From: Symbiodinium sp. CCMP2592
Taxonomy: Eukaryota > Sar > Dinophyceae > Suessiales > Symbiodiniaceae
NCBI GenBank assembly: GCA_905221615.1
Contig: CAJNDT010000940.1
Coordinates: 47,488 to 111,487, forward strand
Direction of reading: 5' to 3'
DNA length: 64,000 nucleotides
The translations under genes and the position numbers were made by a program. Under the pieces are notes generated by a model. It saw nothing but the letters and a program-made list of their open reading frames with translations, was not told the DNA's origin and did no database searches. Shown here piece after piece: positions 25,432-56,249 of this stretch (its first letter is position 1; the number at the start of each line of letters is the position of its first letter).

Positions 25432-25467
25432 GCAAGCACGCAGATTGAGCCTTCGGCATGCTGTGAG
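25432..25467 (+). other. Candidate 36-nt GC-AG intron at the Rep-helicase junction (copy 1)
   Basis: GCAAGC...TGTGAG, 36 nt, a multiple of three, containing both in-frame TGAs (25446 and 25464). Its removal would join LYMRS to FKELVDSAVDRALS. An alternative cut at 25440-25475 also gives 36 nt. The size is very small for a dinoflagellate intron, so readthrough remains possible. Confidence 0.4.
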
Positions 25468-26726: not shown

Positions 26727-27192
26727 CGTGGGTTATAGCAGCAGTCGTTTCACTTCGGCAGGCGCTACGTGAATAGGTAGCCCGCAACATGTTGCGAAAG
26801 CAACTTTCAAGGATTTTCATTCGGAGCCAAGCACTGGTGCCGCGCGAGCCGTATACTGTGCAGGCAGCGCCGAGCACAGTCTTTGCTCTTCAACTTCCCA
26901 CACCAGATAGCATCGAAGGTGCCAAAACAAGCTTGCCAGGAGCGCCGTACATCGCAGGTGTCTTGACACATGTGTGTTGATGCCACCCACAGATGACTGC
27001 CGTGGTTGGACGAGCCTCATAGTCGTCCCTCTCGCGCAATCTGGGCTCTAAGCGGAAACAACTTGACATCTGCAGTTTACATCCTTTTGCACACGCCCAA
27101 CGACCTGTTCATTACTTCTCCAATGCCCTTCTCATACTGCGCGTAGCGTAGGGCCTTTGTAGGGTGTGGTGCTGAGTGCGCAGACAAGTGCC
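26727..27192. other. Intergenic stretch (copy 1)
   Basis: No domain-bearing frame seen. It is conserved in the second segment apart from a few substitutions and a small GCAGGC insertion there near 54925. Confidence 0.5.
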
Positions 27193-27825
27193 ATGAAGTT
27201 GGCCGAAAAGACCGCGCGGCTGCTGTGCTGGTACCTGCCCGATTGGGTTGATGGCCTGTCGATCCTGAACTGGCTAGGCACCTGCCGAGAAGCGCGTCTC
27301 TCTCAGCGCGGAACCTCTTGGCCGGCCAAATTTCAAGCGACGGTGCACTTCACAAAGAATCTGCTGGCATACATGCGCAAGCACCACGTCATGCCGTCCA
27401 ACGAAGACTACGTGGACGCCCTGCTACATTTGTTGCATGACGACAGGCTGCCCGTCGCGCTTCCTTCCCCAGGCGGCCCGCTGGTCATTGACACTGCCCA
27501 CGTTGGAGAATATCGCGAGCACGTTGCAATGTACTTGGGCTTGCGTGCCGGAAGCATCAAGGGCAACAGCTTCAAGGAGTTTCTCGCAGTGGTACAGAAG
27601 CTGAACGGCCCTGAGCATGCTTGGTGCAGGGATCCAGCATTCCAGTCTGTGCGCAACAAGCTTGTCGAAGGCAATGCACGATTCTTCGTGCATAGTGAGT
27701 GTTGGGATTCGTTGCTGCACGGCTCTGAGTGTACAGACAGCTGCGACTGCATTTACCTGGTGTTTCAATATCACAACTTCTATTTTGCTTTGTGCACCTG
27801 GCCGGATATTGACAATTACCTGTGA
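27193..27825 (+). CDS. Helitron-associated 210-aa protein (copy 1)
   Basis: The ATG in gccATGaag is the first in a frame that is open slightly upstream. The N-terminal 40 residues (LLCWYLPDWVDGLSILNWLG, then TCREARL) loosely resemble an F-box helix set, but I would not call it that without a profile search. The C-terminal third has a Cys-rich segment (HSECWDSLLHGSECTDSCDC) that could bind metal, followed by aromatic residues. Almost unchanged in the second segment; the clear difference is Thr/Ser near residue 7. It follows the helicase at about 470 bp on the same strand and is probably a passenger or accessory gene of the element. Confidence 0.65.
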   Translation: MKLAEKTARLLCWYLPDWVDGLSILNWLGTCREARLSQRGTSWPAKFQATVHFTKNLLAYMRKHHVMPSNEDYVDALLHLLHDDRLPVALPSPGGPLVIDTAHVGEYREHVAMYLGLRAGSIKGNSFKEFLAVVQKLNGPEHAWCRDPAFQSVRNKLVEGNARFFVHSECWDSLLHGSECTDSCDCIYLVFQYHNFYFALCTWPDIDNYL

Positions 27826-28264
27826 GCTAAATTCCGCCCCGCGTCTAGTGCAGAGACGTCAGGGAGCGTGCAGATGCGAGTCGCTGTACAGGCCGTGCAA
27901 AGATCAGAAACCTCGAGCACGCCTTACACCCTTGCGAGCAGAAAACGAATGACAGCTTCTTCCGCGCAATGCCTCCGCCCCGACACAACTGAGAAGTCCA
28001 TTTCCATGTTCAGGTTGCGTCACTGCTTAAGCTGTTTTGTTCCATGGCCGTCTCGGCTCGTAAAGAATGCAATTATGATATTTCAGCATGGCTTTCGAAA
28101 GCTGTTTCTTCTAAACCATATAAGCCCCCCTTGATAGGGGGGGTTGGGGGGGGTAGACAACCCTAAACCCGTTCAAGGTTTGTAATTTGGGTGGGCGGGC
28201 GGGCATCGCAGCTCATGCGCCGACCCCAACCACCATGGAGGGGTCGAAAGCGCACTCGCAGCGA
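27826..28264. other. Right flank of duplicated segment, copy 1
   Basis: 3' region of the 210-aa gene, then a G-run (TTGGGGGGGG at about 28145), a lone CCCTAAACCC at about 28161 and a stretch leading into the telomeric seam. No gene seen. Confidence 0.5.
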
Positions 28265-28285
28265 AAACCCTAAACCCTAAACCCT
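28265..28285 (+). repeat. Interstitial telomeric repeat, C-rich
   Basis: Three CCCTAAA-type heptamers. This is the point at which the two long duplicated segments stop being alike. Confidence 0.95.
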
Positions 28286-33590: not shown

Positions 33591-34400
33591 TTGCTCTACG
33601 GGGTTCTTTCTGGCACACTCGTATCCGTAACAAATCGTACTCCCGGGTCTTGGTGATTCTTTCTGGCCCATTCTTATCCGAGGCAAGGAAAATAGACACC
33701 AAGTGTCAATATCTGGGGGTGCTTGCGTCAGGCTTGTGCCACGCTTGCATCGCTTTCCCTGCCGAAGCCAAGGTACAACCAGCGCCGTCGGATGAGGCGA
33801 GAGCCGCCTCCAGACTGCATCTGGCAGCAACCTGGCAAAACCAGTTTGTCAGCCTCCAGCAAATCATAATGCCGGAAGGAATCCACTTGGGAAGCTCTCC
33901 AACCACATCGCAATCCTTATTATGAAGGAAATCCATTTGGGAAGCTCTCGGACAACCTGGCAATCCTGATCCTTGTCCACTTCATGGAGGAAATCCAATT
34001 GGGAAGCTCTCGGACCACTTGCTGATGAAGCTGCTACGAGGGAGTGAATACGAATACAAGGACATCTGCAAGTGTACATACACTTGTCAGCTACAGTACA
34101 TTATTATGCTTTCACATTTTTGAAGATTTCGCCGCAACTTACAAGGCGCGCCATGTGCCCCCGCAAAGAATCGGCGGCGTGAGACATTCAACGAGAGCAG
34201 AAATGTGGCTGGCTAGGAGCAAACACTCGATTGCGACCGCACTCTTGTTGATGATGGTTGTTTGCATTCTTGAGCGTTCGAGCTGTTTTTCATGTTTCTT
34301 GTGCTTGAAACCTTGATCGTCGTTCTGCGCAGCTTTCCTGGTGTCAGTTAGTTGGACAGTAGACTGATTTCAGGCCTGGCCTAGACATCTTGTGTTCGCC
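33591..34400. other. Leader region of the second Helitron
   Basis: Contains a GACACCAAGTGTC hairpin at about 33695 and three imperfect copies (about 33875-34020) of a 60-odd-bp unit with TTGGGAAGCTCTCGGA. AG acceptor sites precede the Rep ATG (for example TGATTTCAGG at about 34365). No separate gene recognised. The element's 5' end is probably here but no terminus could be fixed. Confidence 0.4.
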
Positions 34401-37400
34401 ATGGCGCCCTGCCTGCGATGTGGCAAGGGAACCCGGAGCGGCCACGGAGAAGGTTGGTGCAGCAATCCCCAGTGCCGTCGAGAAGAACAAGAAGAGCGCA
34501 AAGCCCAGGCGAGCCGGAAAAGACAAGAGCGAGCTGCAAAGGGGGGTGGCAGTCGCGGACCCCTTCCCCTCGAAGCAGCCAGACAAGAACAGCGACGACA
34601 GCTCCAAGCTCAGAGGGCGGAGGAAGGAGTGGGCAGCCGTGGGCCCAAGCCAGACGAGAATAGCAGCCATCGTGCCCCGCGGCGTGAACAACAAGCCGCA
34701 AGGGCAGAGATGATGGAGGAGGGTGTCGGCACTCGTGGGCCGAAGCCTGAGGAGGACAGCACTCGGGCACAGAAGCGCAAGCTGCAAATCCAAAGGGAGG
34801 AGGAGGGTGTCGGCACTCGCGGGCCGAAGCCAGACGAGAACAGCAGCCGTCGTGCCCCGCGCCGTGAACAACAAGCCGCACGGGCAGAGATGATGGAGGA
34901 GGGTGCTGGCAGCCGTGGGCCAAAGCCAGTCGCCACCGAGGTTCAACAACAAGGGTATCCTTTCCCCGACGAAGAGAAGCTCACCCCCGAGCAGGCGCAG
35001 GCCTACTACGTCGCTTTCGTCCGCAGCTGGGGCAGGTTTGGTTTGTCGAGGGTTTGTGAAGGATGCAAGACGCTGACGCCGGCAAGACATCTCAAACTGC
35101 AGAAAGTGATGGGGAAGCTACGCTGCAAGAATTGCAGGGAGAATCAGACCAAGCTCGTTCTCCAGCCCTTGCCGCCCGTCCCGCAAGTCTTACAAGGACT
35201 GAAACCCCTCGAGCAGCAGCTGATCGCAATGGCCAGGATCTCGCAGGTCTTGATCGACAAGCTTCCCGGCGGTGGCCCGAGTGCAGCGTGGGGGCGCATG
35301 TACGCAGTGCTGATGGAGGAGCCCCTCATTTGCGACGTCTTGCAGGGTGCCACTTTCATGGACGACGGCACGGTCTTGGTGGAGGGGGTCCAGGGCATGA
35401 CCGCCTCGCCAGCGCGCCTCCACTGCTTGCACGCAGCTCTACAGCACCTGCAAGCCGAACACTCCTTGTACACAAACTGCCCTGCAGTGCACAGGGCCAT
35501 AGAAAGAATGGCAGCCATCCTGGCACAGAACGGACCCACCTCAAGGGCATACGAAGGAGGAGGGGACTGTCCGCAGCAACCATCAGAGTCCGACAGCGAC
35601 GATGACGAGCTCGAGGTGACCTACCTGGTGCCCAAGGAGTACAAGATCCCCAACGCCGAGATCAGCGATCTGCGCAAGGCTCGAGAATGTTCGAGGCTGA
35701 TCGAGAACATGGACGTGAAGTTCTTCCCGCACTTGTTTCCAACTGGTACCGGCGGATTCCCAATGCTCACACAAGGCAAGGACACCAACTTCTCGCAGTA
35801 TGCCCGGAAACGTCTCCTCGGTCTAGACCCACGATTTGAAGCATCCACGGCCTACATCATGTGGCTGCTCGAGATGCAAACGAAGAAGCGCTTGTCAGGC
35901 AACATCAACGTGAGGATCCGCGACCTAAAGCAGCCCAGAGGCTCAACCGAGTACGAGAACCACAGCCGTCAGGTATACACGGTCCTCAGAGACATGCCAG
36001 GAACGCAGCCGTACCTGCATGCAAAGAAGGGCGTGGCGCTCAGCATGTACGAGCAGCTCGGAATTCCCAACTTCTTCATGACGCTGACCTGTCACGCGCG
36101 CCAACCAGAACTCCTCGTCGCAGTCATCATGGCCAGACTCTTGCGACTCCATCCCCGTCCGCCCGAAGAGCTGGAGCGGCAGGCTGCCGAAATCCTGTCC
36201 TGCTACCAGAACGACGAGAAGTTCACCTGGGACGGCCTCTCCCCCAACCAGCTGTGCAACCAGCATCCTGCAGTGGTGGCCAGACAGTTCATGCACCAGG
36301 TGTCCAAACTGATGGCGTGGTTGTCAGCCGAACGCGATGCGCCTGATGATGCACAAAGAGACGCAGATCCACAAGACGAGCCCCAGCAAGACGATTTGGA
36401 CGGCGAGGAGGACTTCGCCCAAGCCCCGGCCACGGATTCCACGGGTGTCCATCGGCGCATGCGCAGGGAGCGGCCGCCCTTCAAGGTCTTGGACTATATC
36501 CTCCGCATCGAATGGCAAAAGCGGGGCTTCCCGCATGCTCACATCCTTTTGTGGACCTCGGAACGGTGGAATGCAAAGGAAGACCGGCAGCGGCAGGGGG
36601 CTCCGGAGCCTTCGGAGACCAAAGAAGCGGCAAAGAAAGCAGACCCGAATTGGTCGGACGAAGAGGAGATGGAGAAGTTCGTCCCCAAGTGCGCAGAAGA
36701 TCTCAGCGACAAGCACATCGTTACGAAGAGCCCGCACACTTGGCGCCAATCGCAACGACTCCAGCCCCGAGACATCGAAATCAATGCCAAGCTCGCCGAG
36801 TTGCTGGTGCACACGCATACTCCGTACTGCGGCAAGCGTGAGTTGGGCGCTTGCCGCTTCGGGTTTCCTCGCCCCTCAGAGCCGCGCACCAGACGGCGCA
36901 CTTCCCAGGAGCAGTACGCCAACAGCCGGTTCAAGAGCAGCCTCTGCGTGAGGCGGGCCGAAACAGACACCATGATGGGCAGTTACAATACGGCTATCTT
37001 GCGCAGATGGAGGGCAAGCATGGATCTGCAGGTCATTTGCGAGCTCACCAGTGCCAGCCGCTACATCCTTGGCTACGCCTTCAAATCCGAGGAGGACCGA
37101 AAGGCGCAGCAACGCGTGGAGAAGATCGTTGCGGGCTTCAGCTCCGGCAACAACGACGGCCCGGACCTCCAGAACCAGCAGGTCTACAAAGCGGCGCATG
37201 CAGCATTGCAGGGTCGAACCACGTCCACGTTCGAGGCCTGCCACCTCCTGCTTGGCCTCCCCATCGTCCAGTTCTCGAGAGACAACGTGTGGATCCAAGC
37301 CGGGCCTCCGGCCACGTGGACTGTGTGGGTGCCCAGACAGGATGAAAGCCGTGCCCTCCGAGAACCCGACGCCTACCGCAACACCAAGCTCAGCCGAGAT

Positions 37401-39607
37401 GGGGAGATGCCCATTGCTCAGCACTGGTACCGACAGATGCAGGCACATTTCAGCAGCCAAGAAGTCCTGGTGCCAGTGGAAGGCGGAGCTCCGACGGCGT
37501 GCACCTTCCAGGATTTGACCTTCATGGACTTTTGCGCAGCCTTCAGGTTCGTCGGCGTCAAATTCCCGCAACCTCGCAGGCAGCCTGCTATCGTCGGGCA
37601 CAGACCTTTCAACCCCGACCTCGAGCCAGAGGAGTTCTACTACTCCAGGCTGCTGCTGCACCTGGTCTGGAAGGAGCCGGGAGACTGGCTGGAGGAGGAA
37701 GACCGCGGAAGCCACGCGGCCGCCTTTCGGCGCATTGTGGCAGACTTAGACGGCCATCCTCATTTCTTGCGATCCAAATGCTTCCCGCAGCTGGACGGCA
37801 CTGTGAATGCCGCCAGGAGACTGCTAGCCGTGCAGGCCACCATGTACATGAAGACCAGGATGCATCCGGCCCACTTGCGGGACGGCTGGGCGAACAGCAA
37901 GGTGGCCGAGGACAACTACAAGGACTCCCTGGAAATTATGGAAGCGCTGAAGAAACGGCACGGGGGCGACATCGACTTTCTGGCCCCAGACACCGTGCCC
38001 ACCGGAGCCGCCAGCAACGCTTTCGCGCCTGTGGAAGGCGGAGAGGAGTCTTTCGAGATGCTGACGACGGAGAACCCGACCCCGGAAACGGAGCGACAAC
38101 GGCAGGCAATGGAGCACATCGTCAACTCCGTCCTGAGCTGCCCGAACATCAAGAGCAGCGAGAGCACCCGACGACTGAAAATGCTGCTTCATGGACCGGG
38201 CGGCTGCGGAAAGTCGGTTGTGGTGCGAGCAGCAGCTCACATGCTCCGCCAAGACGGCAAAGGAGTGGTGATCGCGGCACCGACGGGGGTGGCGGCCTGG
38301 AACATCAACGGCGTGACCCTCCACTCATGCCTCCTTCTCCCGGTCGTCAACAAGAGCTACGGCAAGGCCTGCGATCTACCCCTTCCAAACGGCCCCCAGC
38401 TGGCTTCCCTCCGAGCAATCTGGGCAAAGGTGGTGGCACTCTTCGTGGACGAGATGAGCTTCGTTTCCGCGTTCATGTTGGATCGACTGGACCAGCACCT
38501 CCGTCTCGCCAAAGACGCTCCACACCTGCCTTTCGGAGGACTCCACAGGAGACCTGTACCAGTTGCCACCCCCCGGCGGCTTACCAGCCTTCGCCAGTCG
38601 GCTATGGCTTCTCTTCGAGCTGTGCGAGCTCCAGGGCAACCAGCGTGCGGCCAAGGACCCGACCTGGGCGGCTCTGCTCGCAAGGGTCCGCGTCGGGAAC
38701 TGGACGGAGGCGGACATCGAGACCTTGCGCGGCATGGTGGTCAAGAAACAGGGCTCGAAGCGGCCCGCCCCGAAGGCCGTCAATCTGTACGCCACCCGAA
38801 AAGCAGTCGCAAACGCCAACGACAAGTACAAAGCCGAGCACCTACAGAGAACCGACGCCACGCTTCACGACTGCCCGGCCGTGGACTTCAACGTCAAGAC
38901 CGGAGCTCCGCTGGACCCAGCAGCCATCTGGACAGATCCAGAGGATACTGGAGGACTCGAGACCTTGCTGCAGCTTTCGGTCGGCTTGCGTGTTATGCTG
39001 CGGCACAACATCGACGTGGAGGATGGCTTGGTTAACGGAGCTTGCGGCGCCGTGGAGCACATCGACATCGACGAGACCAGCGGAGAGGTGGAAAGGATCT
39101 GGATCGCCTTCGAGAAGAATGCCGGAACCATTTGGCGAGCGGAGCACGGCACCAACTCAGTGGCCATTCTCCGTCGCTCGGGCACGTACGTGGACAAGGA
39201 CTGCAACAAAGCGGAAAGACGTCAATTTCCGCTCGTGCTCGCTAAAGCCATCACCATCCACAAGAGCCAAGCAGCCACGATGCACGACGGAGTCCACGCA
39301 CGCTTGGACCACACGGTCACCCAGGAAGGTCAAGCGTACGTCGCCCTGAGCCGCTGCCCCGAGCAGGCATTGTGCACCCTGGAGCACTTCAACCCGAAGG
39401 CTTTGCGATTCAACAAGAACGCTGAGTGGGCTCTGCACAAGTTGAAGTTTCAGCAAGCGCAGAGGGATGGTCCGCCACTCTGGCGTGCCTTGTTCAAGCC
39501 TCCGCAGAGCAAGGAAGTCTACTCGAAGCGATTGCAGGAGCTGGGCAAGCCTGATTTCGCGAAGCTGGGGACATGGCACGGCGAGGATGCGGAGGAGGGC
39601 GTCCGAC

Positions 39608-39700
39608 CCTGGCACTGCCCGCTGTGCGGCGAAGAAGCTCCCGACACCAAAGCTGCCGTTCAGGCTCACAGAAAGACGTGCCCGTGCAAGCCCGAATCCA
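39608..39700 (+). other. C2HC zinc finger in the second Helitron
   Basis: WHCPLCGEEA, then AHRKTCPC: C-x2-C followed by H and Cys at finger spacing, then a Lys/Ala/Ser linker. It sits between the helicase and Josephin parts and may help DNA binding or tether the protease part. Confidence 0.65.
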
Positions 39701-39920
39701 AAGCCAAGGCCAAGAGCTCAGCCAAGAGCAAGGCTAAGCCCGTGGCCGGCGCCGCAGCAACGCCGAGCCAAGCTACTTTTGGCACGGGTAAGCGAGCCGC
39801 CGAAAATTATGCCGTGGCACATGTGCCGGTGGCCAAGCATCTTCGCAAAGACACTTGCAGCAACAGCACCCCGGCCACGCCAACAGCGGCAACCGCCCCA
39901 GGAGGAGCAGCAGAACCAGC

Positions 39921-40386
39921 CGAGGCTTATTTCGAGCAGCAGCAGCGCGCCCTCTGCGGGTTGCATGCTCTCAACAATGCTTTGGGGGCAAGGCACTTCG
40001 CACCGGAGGACATGGAGAAGGCCGTGCTCGTTCTTCTTGAAGAAGGTGGCCACGAACGTGGAGAAAACATCCAGGACCACGTGGCTCCAGATGGCTTCTA
40101 CTCCTCCGAAGTCTTGGCTCAAGCACTCCAGTCGAAGGCCATGGACACTTACGATCGGGTCATGTGGGAAATGCCTTTGAGACCCGTGACGACCGTGCGC
40201 GAGCTGCAAGGAGCTGTAGGGGCTGTGCAGAATCGGGACAACTTGCACTGGGTAGCTTACCGCTTCTTCAACAACGGCATCCTCCGTTTGGATTCTTTGG
40301 CACGCGCACCGGAGCACATCCTAGAGGACACCTTCTTGGCCGACCTCCGGCACTACCCCAGCACCTACTGCATCCGTGAGGTCTAG
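39921..40386 (+). other. Josephin (ataxin-3-type) deubiquitinase domain fused to the helicase
   Basis: About 154 residues in the same frame as the helicase C-terminus, ending at a TAG. The start FEQQQRALCGLHALNNALGA carries the Josephin active-site Cys, with a Gln five residues before it as in ataxin-3. NLHWVAYR supplies the catalytic His, and LRLDS places an Asp where ataxin-3 has Asn and the short Josephins have Asp. GFYSSEVLAQAL matches the usual middle helix. All three catalytic positions are present, so the domain could be active on ubiquitin. Activity and purpose are inference. Confidence 0.85.
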
Positions 40387-40834: not shown

Positions 40835-41110
40835 CCAGAGCCCGAAACAGTCTCCACGAAACAATCCCCGCGAGAGCCCGAAACAGTCGCCACGAAATTT
40901 CATATTCTTCCGGGAGCAAAAGCAAAAACCCTGTCAAGACCCGCCAAAACCCGCCCGAAACCCGGCAAAACTCCGGAAACAGTCTCCACGAAACAATCCC
41001 CGCGAGAGCCCGAAACAGTCGCCACGAAATTTCATATTCTTCCGGGAGCAAAAGCAAAAACCCTGTCAAAACCCGCCAAACCCGCCCGAAACCCGGCAAA
41101 ACTCCGGACC
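40835..41110. repeat. Direct repeat of about 120 bp, two copies
   Basis: Units run from CCCGAAACAGTCTCCACGAA through ATTTCATATTCTTCCGGGAG to AACCCGGCAAAACTCC. The A/C-rich end (AAAACCCGCCC) and the following CTATAAACCCTAAA are shared with 60245-60380. Confidence 0.9.
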
Positions 41111-41131
41111 CAAACCCTACACACCTTCTAT

Positions 41132-41191
41132 AAACCCTAAACCCTAAACCCTAAACCCTAAACCCTAAACCCTAAACCCTAAACCCTAAAC
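41132..41191 (+). repeat. Interstitial telomeric repeat, C-rich
   Basis: About eight perfect CCCTAAA heptamers. The DNA after it changes abruptly to a GC-rich palindromic stretch. Confidence 0.98.
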
Positions 41192-41559: not shown

Positions 41560-44500
41560 ACCTGCCGGACTCGCTTATCCTGGTGGACAAGAAGGAGGAC
41601 CTCTCGGAGAGCCAGTTCGCTTATCCTGGGGACAAAGAAGGAGGACCTGCCGGAGATCCAGGTCGCTTATCCTGGGGACAAAGAAGGAGGACCTGCCGGA
41701 GAGCCAGTTCGCTTATCCTGGTGGAAAAGAAGGAGGACCTGCCGGGGCGCCAGTTCCCTTATCCTGGGAACAAAGAAGGAGGACCTGCCGGAGAGCCAGT
41801 TCGCTTATATTGGGGACAAAGCAGGAGGACCTGCCGGGGGACAAAGAAAGAGGACCTGCCGGAGAGCCAGTTCGCTTAGCCTGGGGACAAAGAAGGAGGA
41901 CCTGCCGGAGAGCCAGTTCGCTTATCTTGGGGACAAAGAAGGAGGACCTGCCGGACCAGTTCGCTTATCCTGTGCCGGAGAGCCAGTTCGCTTATCCTGG
42001 GGACAAAGAAGGAGGACCTGCCGGAGAGCCAGTTCGCTTATCCTGGGGACAAAGAAGGAGGACCTGCCGGAGAGCCAGTTCGCTTATCCTGGGGACAAAG
42101 AAAGGAGGACCTGCCGGAGAGCCAGTTCGCTTATCCTGGGGACAAAGAAGGAGGACCTGCCGGAGAGCGAAGGAGGACCTGCCGGAGAGCCAGTTCGCTT
42201 ATCCTGGAAACAAAGAAGGAGGACCTGCCGGAGAGCTAGTTCGCTTATCCTGGGGACAAAGAAGGAGGACCTGCCGGAGAGCCACTTCGCTTATCCTGGG
42301 GACCAAAAAGGAGGACCTGCCGGAGAGCCAGTTCGCTTATCCTGGGCACAAAGAAGGAGGGCCTGCCGGAGAGCCAGTTCGCTTATCCTGGAGACAAAGA
42401 AGGAGGACCTGCCGGAGAGCCAGTTCGCTTATCCTGGCGACAAAGAAGGAGGACCTGCCGGAGAGCCAGTTCGCTTATCCTGGGGACAAAGAAGGAGGAG
42501 GACCTGCGGGAGAGCCAGTTCGCTTGTCCTGGGGACAAAGAAGGAGGACCTGCCAGAGAGCCAGTTCGCTTCCTGTGGGGACAAAGAAGGAGGACCTGCC
42601 GGAGAGCCAGTTCGCTTATCCTGGGGACAAAGAAGGAGGACCTGCCGGGGCGCCAGTTCGCTTATCCTGGGGATAAAGAAGGAGGACCTGCCGGAGAGCC
42701 AGTTCGCTTATCCTGGGGGCAAAGAAGGAGGACCTGCCGGAGAGCCAGTTCGCTTATCCTGGGGACAAAGAAGGAGGACCTGCCGGAGGCCATTCGCTAT
42801 CCTGGGGACAAGAAGGAGACGGCCGGAGAGACAGTTCGCTTGAATTCTGGGACAACGAAGGAGGACCTGGCCGGACAGCCAGTTCGCTTTTAGTTCTGGT
42901 TTTTTGTTGTTTTTATCCTGGGGGAAAGAAGGGGACCTGCCGGAGAGCCAGTTCCGATTATCCTAGGGGACAAAAGAAGGGGACAGCCGGAGAGCCAGTT
43001 AGATTATCCTGGGGACAAAGAAGGAGGACCTTGCCAGGAGAGCAAGTTCGATCATCCTGGGAAAAGGAAGGAGGACCTACGGAGGGCCAAGTTCGGCTAT
43101 CCTGGGGACAAAGAAGGAGGACCTGCGGAGAGCCAGTTCGCTTATCCTGGGGACAAAGAAGGAGGGCTTGCCGGAGAGCCAGTTCGATTATCCTGGGGAC
43201 AAAGAAGGAGGACTTGCCGGAGAGCCAGTTCGCTTATCTTGGGGGCAAAGAAGGAGGACTTGCCGGAGAGCCAGTTCGCTTATCCTGGGGACAAAGAAGG
43301 AGGAGACGTAGTTTGCTTATCCTGGAGACAAAGAAGGAGGACCTGCCGGAGAGCCAGTTCGCTTATCCTGGGAACAAAGAAAGAGGACCTGCCGGAGAGC
43401 CAGTTCGCTTATCCTGGGAACAAAGAAGGAGGACCTGCCGGAGAGCCAGTTCGCTTATCCTGGGGACAAAGAAGGAGGACCTGCCGGAGAGCCAGTTCGC
43501 TTATCCTGGTGACAAAGAAGGAGGCCCTGCCGGAGAGCCAGTTCGCTTATCCTGGGGACAAAGAAGGAGGACCTGCCGGAGAGCCAGTTCGCTTATCCTG
43601 GGAGCAAAGAAAGAGGACCTGCCGGAGAGCCAGTTCGCTTATCCTGGGAACAAAGAAGGAGGACCTGCCAGAGAGCCAGTTCGCTTATCCTGGGGACAAA
43701 GAAGGAGGACCTGCCGGAGAGCCAGTTCGCTTATCCTGGGAACAAAGAAGGAGGACTTGCCGGAGAGCTAGTTCGCTTATCCTGGGGACAAAGAAGGAGG
43801 AGGAATTGCGGGAGAGCCAGTTCGCTTGTCCTGGGGACAAAGAAGAAGGACCTGCCAGAGAGCCAGTTCGCTCTATACTGGGGACAAAGAAGGAGGACCT
43901 GCCGGAGAGCCAGTTCGCTAATCCTGGGGACAAAGAAGGAGAACCTGCCGGAGAGCCAGTTCGCTTATCCTGGGGACAAAGAAGGAGGACCTGCCGGAGA
44001 GCTAGTTCGCTTATCCTGGGGACAAGGAAGGAGGACCTGCCGGAGAGCCAGTTCGCTTATCCTGGGGACAAAGAAGGAGGCCTGCCGGAAAGCAAGTTCG
44101 CTTATCCTGTGGACAAAGGAGGAGGACCTGCCGGAGAGCCAGTTCGCTTATCCTGGGGACAAAGAAGGAGGACCTGCGGGAGAGCCAGTTCGCTTGTCCT
44201 GGGGACAAAGAAGGAGGACCTGCCGCCGGAGAGCCAGTTCGCTTATCCTGGGGACAAAGAAGGAGGGCTTGCCGGAGAGCCAGTTCGCTTATCCTGGAGA
44301 CGCCGGAGAGCCAGTTCGCTTATCCTGGGGACAAAGAAGGAGGACCTGCCGGAGAGCCAGTTCGCTTATCCTGGGGACAAAGAAGGAGGACCTGCCCTGC
44401 CGAGAGCCAGTTCGCTTATCCTGGCGACAAAGAAGGAGGACCTGCCGGAGAGCCAGTTCGCTTATCCTGGGGACAAAGAAGGAGGACCTGCCGGAGAGCC

Positions 44501-46442
44501 AGTTCGCTTGTCCTGGGGACAAAGAAGGAGGACCTGCCGGAGAGCCAGTTCGCTTATCCTGGGGACAAAGAAGGAGGACTTGCCGGAGAGCCAGTTCGAT
44601 TATCCTGGGGACAAAGAAGGAGGACTTGCCGGAGAGCCAGTTCGCTTATCCTGGGGACAAAGAAGGAGGACTTGCCGGAGAGCCAGTTCGCTTATCCTGG
44701 GGACAAAGAAGGAGGACGTAGTTTGCTGCAAAGAAGGAGGACCTGGAGAGCCAGTTCGCTTATCCTGGGGACAAAGAAGGAGGACCTGCCGGAGAGCCAG
44801 TTCGCTTATCCTGGGCACAAAGAAGGAGGACCTGCCGGAGAGCCAGTTCGCTTATCCTGGGGACAAAGAAGGAGGACCTGCCGGAGAGCCAGTTCGCTTA
44901 TCCTGGGGACAAAGAAGGAGGACCTGCCAAAAAGCCAGTTCGCTTATCCTGGGGACAAAGAAGGAGGACCTGCCGGAGAGCCAGTTCGCTTATCCTGGGA
45001 GCAAAGAAAGAGGACTTGCCGGAGAGCCAGTTCGCTTATCCTGGGGACAAAGAAGGAGAACCTGCCGGAGAGCCAGTTCGCTTATCCTGGGGACAAAGAA
45101 GGAGGACCTGCCGGTTAGCCTGGGGACAAAGAAGGAGGACCTGCTGGAGAGCCAGTTCGCTTATCCTGGGGACAAGGAAGGAGGACCTGCCGGAGAGCCA
45201 GTTCGCTTATCCTGGGGACAAAGAAGCCGGAGAGCCAGTTCGCCTATCCTGGGGACAAAGAAGGAGGACCTGCCGGAGAGCCAGTTCGCTTATCCTGGGG
45301 ACAAAGAAGGAGGGTTGCCCGAGAGCCAGTTCGCTTATCCTGGGGCCGGAGAGCCAGTTCGCTTAACAAAGAAGGAGGACCTGCCGGAGAGCCAGTTCGC
45401 TTATCCTGGGGACAAAGAAGGAGGACCTGCCGGAGAGCCAGTTCGCTTATCCTGGGGACAAAGAAGGAGGACCTGCCGGAGAGCCAGTTCGCTTATCCTG
45501 GGGACAAAGAAGGAGGACCTGCCGGAGAGCCAGTTCGCTTATCCTGGGGACAAAGAAGGAGGACCTGCCGGAGAGCCAGTTCGCTTATCCTGGGGACAAA
45601 GAAGGAGGACCTGCCGGAGAGCCAGTTCGCTTCCGGAGAGCCAGTTCGCTTATCCTGGGGACAAAGAAGGAGGACCTGCCGGAGCCAGTTCGCACAAAGA
45701 AGGAGGACCTGCCGGAGAGCCAGTTCGCTTATCCTGGGGACAAAGAAGGAGGACCTGCCGGAGAGCCAGTTCGCTTATTCTGGGGACAAAGAAGGAGGAC
45801 CTGCCGGAGAGCCAGTTCGCTTATCCTGGTGACAAAGAAGGAGGACCTGCCGGAGAGCCAGTTCGCTTATCCTGGGGACAAAGAAGGAGGACCTGCCGGA
45901 GAGCCAGTTCGCTTATCCTGGGGGCAAAGAAAGAGGACCTGCCGGAGAGCCAGTTCGCTTATCCTGGGAATAAAGAAGGAGGACCTGCCGGAGAGCCAGT
46001 TCGCTTATCCTGGGGACAAAGAAGGAGGACCTGCCGGTTAGCCTGGGGGCAAAGAAGGAGGACCTGCTGGAGAGCCAGTTCGCTTATCCTGGGGACAAGG
46101 AAGGAGGACCTGCCGGAGAGCCAGTTCGCTTATCCTGGGGACAAAGAAGGAGGACCTGCCGGAGAGCCAGTTCGCTTATCCTGGGGACAAAGAAGGAGGA
46201 CCTGCCGGAGAGCCAGTTCGCTTATCCTGGGGACAAAGAAGGAGGACCTGCCGGAGAGCCAGTTCGCTTATCCTGGGGACAAAGAAGGAAGACTTGCCGG
46301 AGAGCCAGTTCGCTTATCCTGGGGACAAAGAAGGAGGACCTGCCGGAGAGCCAGTTCGCTTCTCCTGGGGACAAAGAAGGAGGACCTGCCGGAGAGCCAG
46401 TTCGCTTATCCTGGGGACAAAGAAGGAGGACCTGCCGGAGAT
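41560..46442 (+). repeat. 47-bp satellite, block V (largest)
   Basis: About 100 units. A degenerate patch at 42780-43110 has many small indels. From 43110 rightward units are close to consensus, which gives a 1,072-codon forward frame (43239-46457) and overlapping frames in the other forward registers. Local duplications of several units at a time are visible (for example the GGTTAGCCTGGGG variants at about 45113 and 46027). The right edge matches that of block IV. Confidence 0.96.
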
Positions 46443-47862
46443 GCAGTCTTGGGGTGACCTAGCCTTCAGCAGATTTTGATTTCTAGTGTTGTTAGTATGA
46501 CCAACCGAAACCTACGAAATATTTGTGTGTACTTGGCTACAACACCTTCATCGTCGCAGCAAAGAACGACGACTTCCCGCAGGGCCACGACGCCTATGCA
46601 GGCGAGAAAAAAGGAGGACTTCGTGAAGGGCTAGATCACAACAGGACGTTCCCGACGGGCTAGTTTGCTGGCAGTGTGGAAGCGACCTGGCCGCAGTCAA
46701 GGAGTCTGGGGTGACCCAGGTTCTGCAGTGACTCACGGCTGGAGTGACTCAAGGCTGGGGTGACTCAGTTCTGGCAAACCCAGTTCTGAGGTGACTCAGC
46801 TCTTGAAGTGATCCAGCCTTGTGGGGTGATGCAGTCTTGGGGTGACCTAGCCTTCAGCAGATTTTGATTTCTAGTGTTGTTAGTATGACCAACCGAAACC
46901 TACGAAATATTTGTGTGGACTTGGCTACAACACCTTCATCGTCGCGGCAAAGAACGACGACTTCCCGCAGGGCCACGACGCTTATCCAGGGGAGAAAGAA
47001 GGAGGACTTCGTGAAGGGCTAGATCACAACAGGACGTTCCCGACGGGCTAGTTTGCTGGCAGTGTGGAAGCGACCTGGCCGCAGTCAAGGAGTCTGGGGT
47101 GACCCAGGTTCTGCAGTAACTCACGGCTGGAGTGACTCAAGGCTGGGGTGACTCAGTTCTGGCAAACCCAGTCCCGAGGTGACTCAGCTCTTGAAGTGAT
47201 CCAGCCTTGGGGTGATGCAGTCTTGGGGTGGCCTAGCCTTCGGCAGATTTTGATTTCTACTGTTGTCTAGTATGACCAACCGGAACCTACGAAACACTTG
47301 CGTGGACTTGGCTACAACACCTTCCTTGTTGCGGCAAAGAACGACGACTTCCCGCAGGGCGACGACGCCCATCCACCGGAGAAAGAAGGAGGCCTTCGTG
47401 AAGGGCTTGATCACAACAAGACGTCCCGACGGGCTAGTTTGCTGGCTGTGTGGAAGCAACCTGGCCGCAGTCAAGGAGTCTGGGGTGACCCAGGTCTGCA
47501 GTGACTCACGGCTGGAGTGACTCAAGGCTGGGGTGACTCAGTTCTGGCAAACCCAGTCCTGAGGTGACTCAGCTCTTGAAGTGATCCAGGCTTGTGGGGT
47601 GATGCAGTCTTGGGGTGACCTAGCCTTCAGCAGATTTTGATTTCTTGTGTTGTTAGTATGACCAACCGAAACCTACGAATCATTTGCGTGGATTTGGCTA
47701 CAACACCTTCATCGTCACGGCAAAGAACGACGACTTCCCGCAGGGCGACGATGCTTATCCAGGCGAGAAAGGAGGAGGACTTCGTGAAGGGCTAGATCAC
47801 ACCAAGACGTCCCGACGGGCTAGTTTGCTGGCACTGTGGAAGCGACCTGGCCGCAATAGACT
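46443..47862 (+). repeat. Tandem repeat of about 387 bp, four units (copy 2)
   Basis: Landmark TGCAGTCTTGGGGTGACCTA at about 46443, 46829, 47216 and 47606. More regular than copy 1, whose first unit is shortened. The third unit reads TGGCCTAGCC. Confidence 0.9.
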
Positions 47863-48137
47863 CTTGTCTGCAAGTGGTGCGATACAGAACGAGCCGCCTG
47901 CATCAATTTACGGAGTGCGCAATGTACAGTGGGGTAGCTACGTGCGTCTTGATTTTGGAGCCCCTGGCATCCTCAGCTGTGAAAGCACAAAAGCTGCACT
48001 GTGTGCATGTCTGGCGTGTCGCACAGTCTCTGTCGAGTTCAGCAGCCATCCGGGACACGTGTTCCGCCTGCCGTGCCGAGCAAAAGCAGCAGCAGTCAGA
48101 CTTGCCCTACTTTTGCTTCGCCTCGTCTTCTGCAGCC

Positions 48138-49565
48138 ATGGGGAAATGGACACCGCGGAAATCGGAGGGCAAGCGCGTAGCGAAAGAGGACAAGACCAAG
48201 GGGAAGTATCCGCCGGGCATTCCCTTCTACAAGCTACCCGTGAAGGCATTCCTCCGAAGCTGGCCCGACGAGGATGGTTGCATGCTCTTGACGGAGAAGC
48301 AAGCTCCTTCCGAATATTTCACTGCTTCGAAGTTGGCAGAGCAGCTGACAGCCGAATCTTCCGAGTGCGTTGCTCGGCTAGGCTTGGGAGTCAGCCTGGC
48401 CGCCGCTGCGCTGGAATCTTGTGCAGCTGCTTTGGCGGTGCTGCCGGCAGCGTCGGCCGACAAGAAGTATGGACAGACCGGGATTCCCGCTGTCAAGAAG
48501 ATTCTGGAAGCCCTCCGTGCCTCGCTCGCTGTGGCCAACATGACCAATAAGGAATGTGCAGATGCTTCCTCGGCGTCGCCCCAAATTGAGAAGGTGCTTA
48601 AGAAGTTGGGGAAGAAGGACGCGTTGAAGCAGCAAGTCAAGGACTTTGCGCGCCTGGCGGACACCAGCTCCCGCATGTATGCAGGTGCCATGGCCGGCTT
48701 GGAGCTCTGCACCCTGGCGGCCAACCCGAAAGTTTGGGCAAAGAAGATCCCGGACGAAAAGGAGCAGGACAAGGCCGTACAGAGGTTCATGCGCAAGAAG
48801 ACTCTGGAGACTTGTGCGCAAGCCGTGGCGACTACCAACGCTGCTCGCTTGGAAGCCAAGGCTCCGCGAAAGAAGCGTGCTTTCGGAGACAGCAGCAATG
48901 ACGGGGACGCCAGCGAAGAGGACTCCCGCTCCGAGTCCGACCAGAACTCGGGCGGTAGAGGATCTGACACCGACAGCGACAAGGAGTCGCGCTCGTCTTC
49001 TGCTTCCAAAGAAAGCCAGAGGAGGAAGAAGAAGGCAAAGAAGCCGAAGGCTCCGAAGAAGCCTGCGGCGCCGGAGAAGCCACCTGCGGAGAAGCCGGCT
49101 GCAGTTGATCTCCGTGTGGACGACGAGGAGGATGATGTAGAGGAGGAAGCTGCTGCAGATCCACATCTGTCCTGGGAAGAATCCGAGGTGGTCAAGTTTG
49201 CCGAGGAGCTGCAGACTATGGTTGCAAACCAGGACAACAAGAAGGAGAGGCTGCCGTTGTCTGCGCTGGTCGCACTGCTGGATAACGTGCCCGAGCCCGT
49301 GCTGACGGAGCATGGACTTGCCAAGGTTCTGCAGACATTGAAGCAGATGACGCGCCTACCGAAGAAGGAGAAGCTGATCACCATCTTCGAGAGCATGCAG
49401 GGTATGGCAGCCAAAGCAAAGAGCCTGCAGGGCCTGCACGAGCAGGTCCACCCTGCGCCGGACGCCGGCTTGGCAGCAGAGGTAGAAGCACCGCCAGAAG
49501 CACCGCCAGCAGCGCCTGCCGTGGTCGAGGAGATCATGGAGAATGATGAGCCGGGAGACGATTGA
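48138..49565 (+). CDS. Helitron-associated 475-aa Lys/Glu-rich protein (copy 2)
   Basis: Same length as copy 1, with a few changes near the N-terminus (for example Ala to Glu and Asp to Glu in the first 20 residues, Arg to Lys near residue 32, Asp to Glu near residue 57) and otherwise the same protein as far as I compared. The pyrimidine tract before the ATG is kept but reads TCTTCTGCAG. A kept frame in both copies, including the long low-complexity part, argues that it is or recently was a functional protein. Confidence 0.78.
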   Translation: MGKWTPRKSEGKRVAKEDKTKGKYPPGIPFYKLPVKAFLRSWPDEDGCMLLTEKQAPSEYFTASKLAEQLTAESSECVARLGLGVSLAAAALESCAAALAVLPAASADKKYGQTGIPAVKKILEALRASLAVANMTNKECADASSASPQIEKVLKKLGKKDALKQQVKDFARLADTSSRMYAGAMAGLELCTLAANPKVWAKKIPDEKEQDKAVQRFMRKKTLETCAQAVATTNAARLEAKAPRKKRAFGDSSNDGDASEEDSRSESDQNSGGRGSDTDSDKESRSSSASKESQRRKKKAKKPKAPKKPAAPEKPPAEKPAAVDLRVDDEEDDVEEEAAADPHLSWEESEVVKFAEELQTMVANQDNKKERLPLSALVALLDNVPEPVLTEHGLAKVLQTLKQMTRLPKKEKLITIFESMQGMAAKAKSLQGLHEQVHPAPDAGLAAEVEAPPEAPPAAPAVVEEIMENDEPGDD

Positions 49566-50024
49566 ATGCCCGTGCAGGCTGTCGTCATGTTTAAAGGCGT
49601 GGCATTGCAAGTATAGCACAGGCACAGCCCGCTCTTTTCGAGTTGTACAGCATTTACCGACCAACGCTTCACCGTTTCATTTTCCATGCAAAATCAAGGG
49701 CTTGCCTCATCATGCATCATGCTGTTCTTCGCTGCTGCTTGAACAAGCTTGCGTGGACAGGCTTGACTTGCGCCGTTCGGCCCTGGTTCGACGAGGTCTT
49801 CAAGGTAGGATAGCACTTGTAGGAATACTTGGGGCGATCTCGCGATCCCAACTGTGCAAGCCATGCCCTCTGTGTGTCCTGGCGCAGCGAGCTCTGCTTG
49901 CTGCTTCTCGGCGCAGAGCCCCGGACGCGCAGCGCACCGAGGCAAATTTCCAACATGTGCACCTTGACGGCAGTTGAACCGAATGAATGCTTTTGTGCCC
50001 ACAGTCGCGAGTTGCCCGTTGTGA
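49566..50024. other. Leader between the 475-aa gene and Rep (copy 2)
   Basis: As in copy 1, with a small CATCATG duplication near 49712. The first exon of Rep, if separate, should lie here. Confidence 0.4.
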
Positions 50025-53000
50025 ACCGAGCCTGAGGTCTTCTGTGATCCGCACCGTCTGGCCACAGCTTGTGTCCAGATACGATCGCGCGGGCACATCA
50101 AACGCTTGCTGTTGGCCTTGACGCCTGAGTGTCAGCTTCTTGCCCTGGAGCGTGTGCCGGAGGAACTCCGTGGGTATTTCCAAACAGAGCTGGCCAAGCC
50201 AAAGTTGTGCATGGGCATGGACGGCGAGCGATGCACCTTTGCGCGTGGAGGTCCTGTTCAGGTGAAGGGTCAGGCCGCGCGCTGCCTCTTCTGTCGACCC
50301 GAAGATCTTTGGCCGCTCTGCGAAGACGACGCGGGCAAGCGAGAGGCAGGACTTTTGCATGCCTAGCGGCAGACAACAACAAGCACAAATCTTTCCCTGT
50401 TCCAGGTGCTCGGCAAACTCCGTCGTCTGTCAGCAGCCAGTCGTGCCCGTGCTCTGGCAGAGCGCTTACCGCCCGGTGCCACCATGGAATATTTTCAGGC
50501 ACAGCTGCAGGGCCCGGCACCCAAGCGCGCGGCTGGGCGGGGTGGCCGGCGACCGCCGGATAAGCAGCAGCTGCCGGACTTGTGGCAGGGTGCTTTGGCG
50601 TCGCGGCAAGCAGCTGGAGGCCCGGCATCAGCGGCGATGAAGAAGAAGTATCGAGAGCAGGTGCTGGCAGACAGGGCTCGAGCGCGGCGTCGCATGGGCC
50701 AGCCTGCCAATCGCACCAAAGCTGGCGAGACTGTGGACAACACGACTGGGCTGCCGCCGGCGAAGCGTCGGCGGCTGGCTGAGAACTTCGAGCGCTGGTG
50801 CCTCTATGACTCGTGGAGCCTGTGCACAAACTGCGGCCTCCTCGCACCTTGCGACCTCACGGAGAGCAGCCTGAGCAAGCCACAGCAGCCCACCCATTCC
50901 TCGGGCAAGTGCTCCAGGTGCCAAGCTGTCCGGGTGCAGCCGGTTGTGACAGTGGCAGATGTGCCAGAAGCATTGCGAGGGCTTAGTTCAGAAGCTGCGC
51001 AAGCCTTGTCACCTCTGGAGATCGATGTGGGGCCGGTCGTTCGCGCCGAGCACAAGTCCGGGTACCGTCAGAAGACGACCTTGATCCGCTTCCGCTGGCA
51101 GACGACGGCGGTGAAGAAGCGCCTCAAGCTCTTACAGGCAAGGCGTTCCATGAAAACTACCTATGTATGTGTATAAGTGCATTTTCTAAATATACCACAA
51201 TATGCAAAACCTGCGGATTGTGCATTGACCAGGATGTGGACATGCGGGCGAAGGCCCGTGCTGCCTACGACTTCCTGCTGGCCTCGGAGGACACTCCGTA
51301 CGCGACCTTCGTGGCCGAGCACAAAGAGTTTCTGCGGGATCACCCTGGCGCAGATGAGCTAACTCGTCGTCGCCGGCTGCAGTTCATTGAGCGTGTGGGT
51401 GTGGAGTGCGCTCTCTGGCCCGTCCTCTTCTGGGATGTTAGGCACACCTTCACGCACGAGCGTGCCACGGATCCCAGGCGGGTGATTCGTCAGGAGCGGG
51501 CCCCAACCCTGGAGCAAGTGCTGAACACTGGTCGGCACACTGCCTTTCCTGCTGCCGAGAGCGACAACGACAGTGACGAGGGAAGCCAGGATACCCACGA
51601 AGAGGCTGTGGAGGACGCTGGTACCACGCGACACAGCATGAAGCGGCTCTTCGCTGCCTTGGCACTGGGTCGCCTGCTTGGCTACGCCGCTGACTTCCAG
51701 CTGCTGCAGTTCGTGTACGACTTGAACCTCTGGAGCAGCATCGGCTCCAAGAAGAACCTGCAGCTGCCGACGCCCATGCGCCTCATGCTCAAGGGCGAGG
51801 CCTTCAGCCCTCACTACTGGCGCGGCGTGCACTATGCCCTGCTGGACATGGTGCGGCAAGTCGGTTACCCTCGCATCTTCTTCACCGTTGCCCCCTACGA
51901 GTGGAGCTTCCCATACCACGAGTGGGTTCGCGACGAGATGCAGAAGATGCTCAAAGAGCGCCTCTTCTTGCCGGTCGCGGAGACGCTGCACATGGTGCAC
52001 GTCATGGTCCAGGCTGTGAAGGGCCTCGTGCTGGGGCACACAGGTGGACGGGCACGGCAGCAAGCTTGGACGAGCAACATCTTTCGTGCGCTGGATGACC
52101 AGGGTCAGCCCCGCCGCCTGCACTTCTTCTTGCGTCTCGAGTATCAGGACGGGACCCGCAAGGCAGCCACCCAGGACTACCACGGCTCCGGCAGAGTCCA
52201 TGTGCACGTCGTCATCTTTGTGAAGCCCGAGGACGTCGAGCAGCTAAACCTGGCGGAAACGGTGTCTGCTACATTGCCTGACGAGGCGGACCTCCGCGGC
52301 TACGTGGAAGGCAGCCAGTACGACCGGGACAAGAAGAGCGGCTGGCCCGTCCACGAGGCGCCGACTTGCTTCGACCGCGCGGCGGGCGCCTGGCGCCTTC
52401 AGCACACCGAGGATGACCATGCGGCCGGTCTGCGCCCCTACATCGTCGACTTGATGGAGGTGCTCCGCTGCCACCAGGACTTTCAGATGTGCGACGACGA
52501 CGGCCTGCTCCGTGCCTACGTCACTAAGTACGTCAGCAAATTCTCGGATGCGGCCAGCGAGGAGTGGCTGAACGACGACGCGGAGGCCATGAGCATCGCC
52601 GCCACCGTGCTCATGCGGTATCGGCCGCTGGAGCCGGAGATGGTGCTGCAGCTCTTTGGCGCCAAGTTCCGGCAATGGCAGCTCTCCACCCAGAGCGGCG
52701 GCAAGCGCGATTTGGTGGCACCATATCCTGACCAGGACCCCAAGCCGCGCGAAGTGGAGCTGTACGAGCAGGCGGACTGGGCTTGTGGTCGCATCAGCCT
52801 CCTCGACTACCTACGCAAAACCACGGCCGAAGGGAAGATCTGCCACTGGCTGAAGAAGCAGCACAAGCAGTCCGGCAGCGAGGCCACTTTGGAGGAGTTT
52901 GCTGCGAGCTACGTGATGCAGGGCGAGAAAGTCGTGGCCGCCGAGACCGTGTCCAAGTTCAACGACCGCTTCTTCGGTCAGTGGCTGATGCTTCATGTTC

Positions 53001-54688
53001 CCTTCGAGAAAGCCACGGACTTCTGCCTTCCTCCGCACCTCGCACGACGGCTCCCGGAAGCCCACAAGTACTTCGCCATGGCGGTCCTCTGCAAGCATCC
53101 GGTGGCCCAGGCCATGTGGCAGGACGACGAGAAGATCCGAGCGGAGCTGAAGATGGAGGCGCACACCAAGGACCACGTGGACACCATCCTCGCCATGATC
53201 CGCGCTCACCGCGGCTTACTGCAGGAATACCTGGACGGCTCGCTGGATGCCCGAAAGGAGCGGCAGGCCCAAGAGAAGCGCAGCGGTGAGAAGAAGGCGT
53301 CCAAGACGAAAGCAGGTCCTGTGGATGCCAGCAAATTCAACAGACAGCAACTCCGCGCCTCGTCTGCATCAGATCACAAGCTGTACATGCGAAGCAAGCA
53401 CGCAGATTGAGCCTTCGGCATGCTGTGAGGCTTCAAGGAGCTCGTGGACTCCGCCGTGGACCGTGCGCTAAGCATCGAGGAGGCAGAGGACGAGGGCGAG
53501 GCAGACCGACTGCGACAAGAAGCTCGAAGCAGCAAGGCCAACGTTTGCCTGGGGCCCCCTGGCACTGGCAAGACCACCGTGATCTTCTCTTGCATCGACC
53601 GTGCTCTGGCCAAGGGTGGCAAGGTCTTGATGGCTTTGCCGACGGCCCAGCTGTCCAGTCGCATGAAGGCACGCTATGGTCACAAGGTGGACATCGATAC
53701 TTGCCACGCCGCCTTTGGCCTACATGAGTCTGCAGAGCACGGGGAGGCCTCGTTGCTGAGCATGTACTCCCTCATCGTTGTCGACGAGCTCTCGCAGCTG
53801 GACATGGTCAACTTCGACAGGATCTTGAGGCTCTGGGCTGCTGCGGATCGCGTGCCGGCCTTGGCGCTGCTGGGTGACCGCTACCAGATGGCCGGCATGG
53901 GAGAACGGCGGCCCTGGCATTCGCGCCTCTGGAACACCATGTGCTACCGGGTGGCCTTGCACAAGATGTACCGTTGTAAGGACAAGCTGCACGCGAAGCT
54001 CCTGGCAGTGCTCAGGACTGGCAAGCCGAGCGCCAAGCTCCTCCAACAGCTCCGCAGGAAGATGGCATGGCGGCCTCCTGGCCCACCCACAGTGAAGGGA
54101 CTTCGGAAGCTCCTGAAGTCGAAGCCCGACACGACCATCCTCACATGCACCAGGCGGGGTGCCGCTCGAGTCAATGCGGCCGCTTTGAAGGCCCTCTTCC
54201 CGAAATACCCTCCGCTTGCGACTTTACCGGCTGACGTGGACGCGAACCCCGAGAATTACGTGCAAGGCATGCTGAAGCCAGTTCACGATCTGCAGCCCTC
54301 CGCCATGCCCGTCTACAAGGGCATGAAGGTGTACTTGACGCGCAATGTGCGGAAGGACGTCGACTTCATCAACGGCATGGAGGCGACGGTTTTGAAGTAT
54401 GACGACGGAACGGGCGGCCTCCTGGTGCGCACCGCCACCGGGTATGTGGTCAGCGTCTGGCCTTGGACCGACCCAGAAAGAGGCGGCTTGGTCTACTATC
54501 CCGTCCGGCCTGGCTACGCATCCACCATCCTGAAGTTCCAGGGTGCAGAACTCCCTCATGTCGTCGTCTACCTGGATGCCCCGAGGGTTCCGGCCGCGGC
54601 CTATACGGCCATCAGCAGGGTCGGCTACTACAAGGACTTCCTGCTGGCGGGCATCTTGACGGAGCATCATTTCGCGCCGGCGAAGTGA
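50025..54688 (+). CDS. Helitron-type Rep/helicase, copy 2 (candidate intact)
   Basis: Inferred coding exons are 50025-50345, 50406-51137, 51233-53393 and 53430-54688; the initiating exon was not found, so the 5' end is provisional. The HUH motif HVHVVIF (about 52200) and the paired tyrosines in AYVTKYVSK (about 52514) are the expected catalytic residues for nicking and strand transfer in rolling-circle (peel-and-paste) transposition. The helicase part has Walker A GPPGTGKTT, Walker B VVDELSQLD, motif III LLGDRYQM, and an intact end with KFQGAELPHV and AYTAISRVG. Rep and helicase lie in one frame, but two TGAs (53408, 53426) separate them in genomic DNA. The helicase part has no ATG before Walker A, so it probably depends on joining to Rep. 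It encodes no finger or protease after the helicase, unlike the second Helitron. Confidence 0.8.
50346..50405 (+). other. Probable 60-nt GC-AG intron (copy 2)
   Basis: Same sequence as in copy 1; donor position uncertain. Confidence 0.5.
51138..51232 (+). other. 95-nt GC-AG intron in Rep (copy 2)
   Basis: Same as copy 1: GCAAGG donor, GACCAG acceptor, phase 0. Confidence 0.8.
53394..53429 (+). other. Candidate 36-nt GC-AG intron at the Rep-helicase junction (copy 2)
   Basis: Unchanged from copy 1, including both TGAs, so the arrangement is older than the duplication. Confidence 0.4.
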
Positions 54689-55160
54689 CGTGGGTTATAA
54701 CAGCAGTCGTTTCACTTCGGCAGGCGCTACGTGAATAGGTAGCCCGCAACATGTTGCGAAAGCAACTTTCAAGGATTTTCATTCGGAGCCAAGCACTGGT
54801 GCCGCGCGATCCGTATACTGTGCAGGCAGCGCCGAGCACAGTCTTTGCTCTTCAACTTCCCACACCAGATAGCATCGAAGGTGCCAAAACAAGCTTGCCA
54901 GGAGCGCCGTACATCGCAGGCGCAGGTGTCTTGACACATGTGTGTTGATGCCACCCACAGATGACTGCCGTGGTTGGACGAGCCTCATAGTCGTCTCTCT
55001 CGCGCAATCTGGGCTCTAAGCGGAAACAACTTGACATCTGCAGTTTACATCCTTTTGCACACGCCCAACGACCTGTTCATTACTTCTCCAATGCCCTTCT
55101 CATACTGCGCGTAGCGTAGGGCCTTTGTAGGGTGTGGTGCTGAGTGCGCAGACAAGTGCC
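54689..55160. other. Intergenic stretch (copy 2)
   Basis: No gene seen; counterpart of 26727-27192. Confidence 0.5.
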
Positions 55161-56230: not shown

Positions 56231-56249
56231 AAAACCCTAAACCCTAAAT
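56231..56249 (+). repeat. Interstitial telomeric repeat, C-rich
   Basis: Two to three CCCTAAA heptamers marking the end of the duplicated segment. Confidence 0.9.

Follow-up and report, generated by a model that had tools for sequence, protein, structure and literature searches.

In Symbiodinium sp. CCMP2592 we identified a large family of rolling-circle, Helitron-like elements with a Josephin domain in their transposase, and our overall reading, to which we give a probability of roughly 0.7, is that this Josephin would deubiquitinate in cis. The family transposase spans about 2000 codons and joins an HUH Rep, a Pif1 helicase, a C2HC finger (in most of the lineages read) and a C-terminal Josephin, and the fusion is present across about ten diverged lineages. 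Deubiquitinases of the OTU and VTD classes are already known in Helitrons; what appears to be new here is the Josephin in Helitron-like elements. A search of the open-licence PMC literature, a scope that gives no proof of absence, found no report of a Josephin-Helitron fusion. The DNA under study, referred to as the window, is a stretch of 64,000 nucleotides (assembly GCA_905221615.1, contig CAJNDT010000940.1, positions 47,488 to 111,487 of the forward strand), and coordinates given without a contig are positions within it.

The Josephin domain was recognized by two kinds of search. Against Pfam, the domain alone (39928-40383) matched PF02099 at 52.9 bits and E 4.9e-14, where the Pfam cut-off is 26 bits, and the match within the longer C-terminal protein reached 48.1 bits (E 1.5e-12). 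This significant profile match agrees with the preliminary description, which had proposed a Josephin from motifs read in the letters, and all of those hallmarks were located in the window: the Gln five residues before the catalytic Cys at 39940 (QQRALC), the HALNN of CGLHALNN at 39964-39978, the HW of NLHWVAYR at 40246, and LDS at 40288. A sequence search of PDB with the single window protein returned Josephins only (5 of 5 matches at E up to 1), comprising Josephin-2 (6pgv) at 2.6e-7 and ataxin-3 and the ataxin-3-like protein at 9e-5 to 2e-4. With a family profile as the query, the same five Josephins were retrieved, Josephin-2 now at 2.4e-11, together with a weak C39-like peptidase (0.00094). 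Searching NCBIfam with the Josephin domain gave no match. Since the Pfam and PDB sequence searches both match Josephin, we reject the reading that the window holds no Josephin.

The features of the window copy are collected in Table 1. Its gene is covered by two open frames, 34368-39035 and 38458-40386, which switch near 38543 between the helicase strings FGG and GDLYQLPP. The transposase starts at the ATG at 34401, with the same MAPC start as 11 intact copies elsewhere in the genome, and the second half of the helicase holds a Pif1_2B domain (PF21530, 1.8e-6 in Pfam) and motif VI at 39328-39354. We take the YxxxY motif to supply the catalytic tyrosines, and the Walker A and motif VI labels are likewise our presumed assignments. 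Between two helicase anchor strings the window copy is 11 bases shorter than copy L009, and this interval has the L009 length in 7 of the 10 other subfamily-A copies (L009 included), the anchors not being found in the remaining 3. Downstream of the switch, the Josephin frame is open and continuous with the second helicase half, with no stop. The window copy is one decayed member of the family, and its whole protein is not encoded in one frame: the domain order first proposed for it, from Rep/helicase through the C2HC finger to the Josephin, stands, but the single continuous protein does not, as this copy is frameshifted in the helicase near 38543. For the window protein, Pfam listed no OTU, tegument-like protease or endonuclease family at E up to 1; we presume that a tegument-protease model is part of Pfam.

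Table 1. Features of the Helitron-like element in the window.
Feature	Position	Strand	Basis
N-terminal part: MAPC... start, zinc-knuckle-like N terminus, Rep, first helicase half	34401..38543	+	frame 34368-39035
Helitron_like_N (PF14214)	35913..36551	+	Pfam, E 8.9e-17
HUH motif GFPHAHILLW, Rep nickase	36525..36554	+	motif search
Rep two-tyrosine motif SRYILGYAFKSE (YxxxY)	37056..37091	+	motif search
Pif1-like helicase, first half (PF05970)	38094..38540	+	Pfam 4e-15; Walker A 38193-38216
Frame change within helicase	38540..38548	+	short deletion relative to 7/10 sibling copies; 3 not comparable
C-terminal part: helicase second half, C2HC finger, basic linker, Josephin	38545..40386	+	frame 38458-40386
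C2HC zinc finger CPLCG...H....C	39616..39681	+	motif search and alignment
Josephin deubiquitinase domain, Gln/Cys/His/Asp active-site residues	39928..40383	+	Pfam and alignment; Pfam-aligned core 39940-40338
Family-wide conserved 3'-end signature, ...ACACCTTCTAT followed by AAACCC	41109..41137	+	cross-copy comparison
Telomere-like (AAACCCT)n tract directly after the 3' signature	41132..41187	+	cross-copy comparison

Other copies in the genome, a 1.098 Gb assembly of 5383 contigs, preserve the whole protein. Using the C-terminal half as the query, we obtained 73 matches (889 first-look candidates, 72 scored), which form two groups at 88-100% and 57-60% identity. Besides the window, 17 copies (L009-L025) were retrieved together with upstream sequence; 16 of them match approximately the whole query, and L018 matches from residue 67. 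A single uninterrupted frame of 1967-2066 aa runs from MAPC to the Josephin in 11 of these 17 copies, and the strings of Rep motif 1, HUH, YxxxY, Walker A and HALN[N/H] are present in all 11 intact proteins; the other six (L013, L015, L016, L018, L021 and L025) are interrupted or start inside. One open frame holding all these parts in 11 of 17 copies establishes the fusion, and we regard the Josephin identity and its fusion to a Helitron-like Rep/helicase as virtually certain. The proposal that the Josephin is the C-terminal domain of a Helitron Rep/helicase is thereby upheld outside the window, by a search of this same genome for the Rep-helicase-Josephin architecture.

The copies also vary in form. 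L026-L028 are shortened derivatives that keep the second helicase half and the Josephin, and L026 and L027 each contain two units in head-to-tail order with a spacing of about 4.1 kb. Among the 73 C-terminal-half matches, 28 begin at query residue 91-108 and end at 613, in frames of 526-568 aa. In four subfamily-B copies (L019-L022) the transposase is preceded by a second, common frame of 256 aa. In the L054/L055 lineage, with frames of about 2169-2189 aa, about 60 additional residues (TVRY..PGQSL..VDKAHVQL) precede the Josephin.

Conservation of the active site extends to every copy aligned. All 33 aligned C-terminal parts, many of which are close siblings, have the same Gln, Cys, two His, Trp and Asp; in a comparison of ten lineages, Gln, Cys and His do not vary, and the Asp is found in all nine that extend to it. 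PF02099 was matched by all ten lineage representatives (E up to 0.01). The two N-terminal cysteines of the C2HC finger occur in 30 of the 33 aligned copies, the three rows with a gap belonging to an L029-type lineage that lacks the finger. Pooled over six pairs of related copies, pN/pS was 0.25 for the Josephin, 0.16 for the helicase and 0.41 for the linker, and the Josephin differences in these pairs amount to 81.2 nonsynonymous against 99.8 synonymous (one-sided binomial p 2e-20), although single pairs vary (Josephin dN/dS of 0.80 in L023-L040, on 7 differences). The pooled value of 0.25 therefore points to purifying selection on the Josephin, with a constraint below that of the helicase and above that of the linker. 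Judged from its sequence, the domain probably has deubiquitinase activity; the selection acting on it leaves its substrate unspecified.

The Josephin is widespread in this genome. A genome search with PF02099 gave 419 candidates, and the best 150, all of which scored over the cut-off, include none with a listed internal stop; the same search found nothing in 14 control genomes. Of these 150 places, 70 are enclosed by frames no shorter than 1700 aa and 52 by frames under 700 aa, proportions that do not describe an unbiased sample because the 150 are the best candidates. The long-frame places read are those that were fetched. The C-terminal end was read at another 16 places: helicase and Josephin share one frame in 15, and the sixteenth (L044) is masked upstream. 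Starting from the other end of the protein, a search with the Rep family PF14214 gave 754 candidates, 150 of them scored, and the Josephin is present in all six copies picked from this list, being partly masked in L057 and followed up to the HW motif, where the fetched stretch ends, in L054 and L055. Josephin-2 as a query gave 14 matches in the genome, one of which, on C1078 (L060), is again a Rep-helicase-Josephin protein of another lineage; host JosD/ataxin-3 genes were not identified among these 14 (C796, C3844 and C1268 unread). Stand-alone host Josephin genes were considered for nine short-frame places (L045-L053, Josephin frames of 150-349 aa) and rejected, as all nine match element-lineage Josephins. 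In L046, L047 and L048 interrupted frames lead upstream into helicase sequence, L052 begins in the late helicase, and L051 carries its helicase piece in inverted orientation. For L045 (three tandem units), L049, L050 and L053, nothing in the stretch fetched matches the helicase. A divergent Rep relic on C283 (L061) had no Helitron-Josephin protein readable by eye, and two other divergent Rep places lie on C4534 and C5324. Scans of viral contigs and genome contigs, which covered no eukaryote collection, confirmed no relatives outside this genome. With a Josephin domain at 150 or more places in one genome, counts of gene families in dinoflagellate annotations call for caution.

Comparison across copies also revealed a common 3' end. 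Past the stop codon, 17 of 18 copies (window included) share a conserved signature whose last bases are ACACCTTCTAT, ACAATTTCTAT or a close variant of these, and L015 is the one of the 18 viewed with no match to it. Directly after the signature come at least two exact AAACCCT units in 10 of the 18 copies, one in four and an imperfect tract in three, and the flanks past this telomere-like tract differ between copies or match only partly. The 29-base signature has 419 exact places in the genome and its reversed control 0. In the 100 bases at the window's 3' signature there was no hairpin beyond chance (z 0.63). The 21-base dinoflagellate spliced leader has 429 exact copies in the genome, and its reversed control has 0, in support of a dinoflagellate host.

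The Josephin and the helicase have partly different histories. In trees built on 17 of the 33 aligned rows, the helicase places subfamily A, to which the window belongs, with subfamily B (94/97) and the L029 lineage far outside. The Josephin tree that includes Josephin-2 and ataxin-3 joins A with L029 and L054 (86/88), and the one built without these two outgroups and L054 joins A with L029 (99/99). By the AU test, forcing A+B on the Josephin was rejected (p 0.008) and forcing A+L029 on the helicase was not (p 0.094). Three close pairs show a sharp contrast in synonymous divergence between the helicase and the Josephin (Fisher p 9e-13, 6e-6 and 1e-5), and for the L009-window pair p is 0.001; these pairs were chosen after earlier pair values had been inspected. 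Such partial discordance suggests that the 3' module has been exchanged between related elements, and the deep part of this history, which uses 150 columns with long branches, is tentative.

Other repeats surround the element. An 11 kb direct duplication, 97.6% identical between 17310-28281 and 45253-56248, flanks the Helitron; frames in both of its copies show a weak Phage_GPA match (20 bits, below the cut-off of 31.4), and one frame in the second copy matches an AAA_30/SF1 helicase at 64.3 bits. The duplication is possibly another type of rolling-circle element with a different HUH Rep. Arrays of a satellite with a period of about 46 bases (judged by eye) are common to 6136-8741 and 41571-46441. 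OTU deubiquitinase domains (e.g., C929:70804-71121) are strongly multiplied in the genome: of 614 candidates 150 were scored, all over the cut-off, and many of these places lie in frames of about 1800-2190 aa, some spaced about 11 kb apart, while the 2.1 kb upstream of one of them (L062) form a single open frame. This multiplication within long frames suggests that a second kind of repeated element in the genome may also carry a deubiquitinase, of the OTU class.

What the Josephin does for the element can be approached from the arrangement of the protein. Rep would nick one strand, the helicase would peel the nicked strand off during rolling-circle copying, and the Josephin would strip ubiquitin in cis from the transposase or from proteins held beside it, which could keep a long-lived nicked complex from extraction or degradation. 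We prefer protection of the transposase in cis from ubiquitin-dependent destruction as the likeliest role, and hold it tentatively, because the Josephin is covalently attached, its active site is intact and under selection, and other Helitrons have counterpart deubiquitinase classes. A rather unlikely alternative is that the Josephin acts in trans on host PCNA, histones, or repair and telomere proteins, easing fork passage or access to targets. The active site, unchanged in 33 of 33 copies, would serve such a role as well, and the one or more exact telomere-like units that follow the 3' signature in 14 of 18 copies could place the protein near special chromatin, but the tract may be the target or a part of the element. 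The position of the domain at the extreme C terminus, behind a long basic linker, would also fit self-processing, with the protease cleaving the 2000-aa product into pieces, yet a terminal position leaves little to release and, to our knowledge, Josephins cut after ubiquitin and not at polyprotein sites, which makes this very improbable. Helitrons do capture gene fragments, as the available passages of PMC6431247 describe, and the window copy itself is broken, so that the Josephin might be a captured piece of a host gene, now a neutral passenger; we reject this as scarcely credible given its pooled pN/pS of 0.25 (p 2e-20), its in-frame position in 11 of 17 copies and its presence in about ten lineages with widely diverged proteins. 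Although the window frames differ on either side of a point in the helicase, we give almost no credence to a separate neighbouring gene or to an assembly or contamination artefact, since the C-terminal frame of the window links the second helicase half to the Josephin without a stop and Rep, helicase and Josephin share one frame in 11 of 17 copies, with whole-protein single frames on many contigs, including the 225-kb C382.

Returning to the Josephin as a deubiquitinase acting in cis, we tentatively propose a wider picture, in which rolling-circle transposons would have recruited a third, unrelated deubiquitinase class, with a Josephin that is obligatory and active across a whole Helitron-like superfamily of this dinoflagellate, a 3' module that is swapped between lineages, and ends tied to telomere-like repeats. 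That selection has maintained a third, independently used class throughout a large family suggests that ubiquitin removal aids rolling-circle transposition; if this is true, deubiquitination would be a general need of the process rather than the oddity of one lineage.

Among known systems, canonical plant and animal Helitrons share with this family the Rep motifs, HUH, YxxxY and Pif1 helicase in one protein. They end in 5'-TC/CTRR-3' with a 3' hairpin and their insertion lies between A and T. At the 3' end, the side read here, the signature runs into telomere-like repeats, and canonical ends may or may not be present in this family. Within the Josephin family (ataxin-3, JosD1/2), the domain shares the catalytic Gln, Cys and His plus Asp in an alignment over about 140 residues, with 32% identity between the window copy and Josephin-2; the Asp is as in Josephin-2, whereas ataxin-3 has Asn there, and the domain forms the C terminus of a transposase rather than a small host enzyme. 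Helentrons with OTU and AP endonuclease domains, and the canonical ends, have been described (PMC6431247, PMC4067079, in the passages available). Like this family, OTU Helentrons and Helitrons combine an HUH Rep and a Pif1 helicase with an added cysteine protease of deubiquitinase fold, but the protease here is a Josephin, a different class. The comparison with OTU-bearing Helitrons made in the preliminary description was incomplete, as Helentrons carry VTD deubiquitinases and some carry OTU (PMC9741609). In the available passages of that paper, three zebrafish Helentron VTD domains are active in vitro, cleaving K48 and K63 chains and, in two of the three, K11 chains as well; its authors suggest that the deubiquitinase protects the transposition proteins. 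Those passages name Josephin once, as a deubiquitinase class, and present VTD as an additional class beside the Josephins. VTD Helentrons resemble the present family in keeping a deubiquitinase with its active site inside the Helitron open reading frame. They differ in ending with an AP endonuclease, where the 11 intact proteins here end in the Josephin, and in their hosts, which in PMC9741609, as far as its available passages go, are vertebrates, insects, cnidarians and molluscs, whereas the host here is a dinoflagellate.
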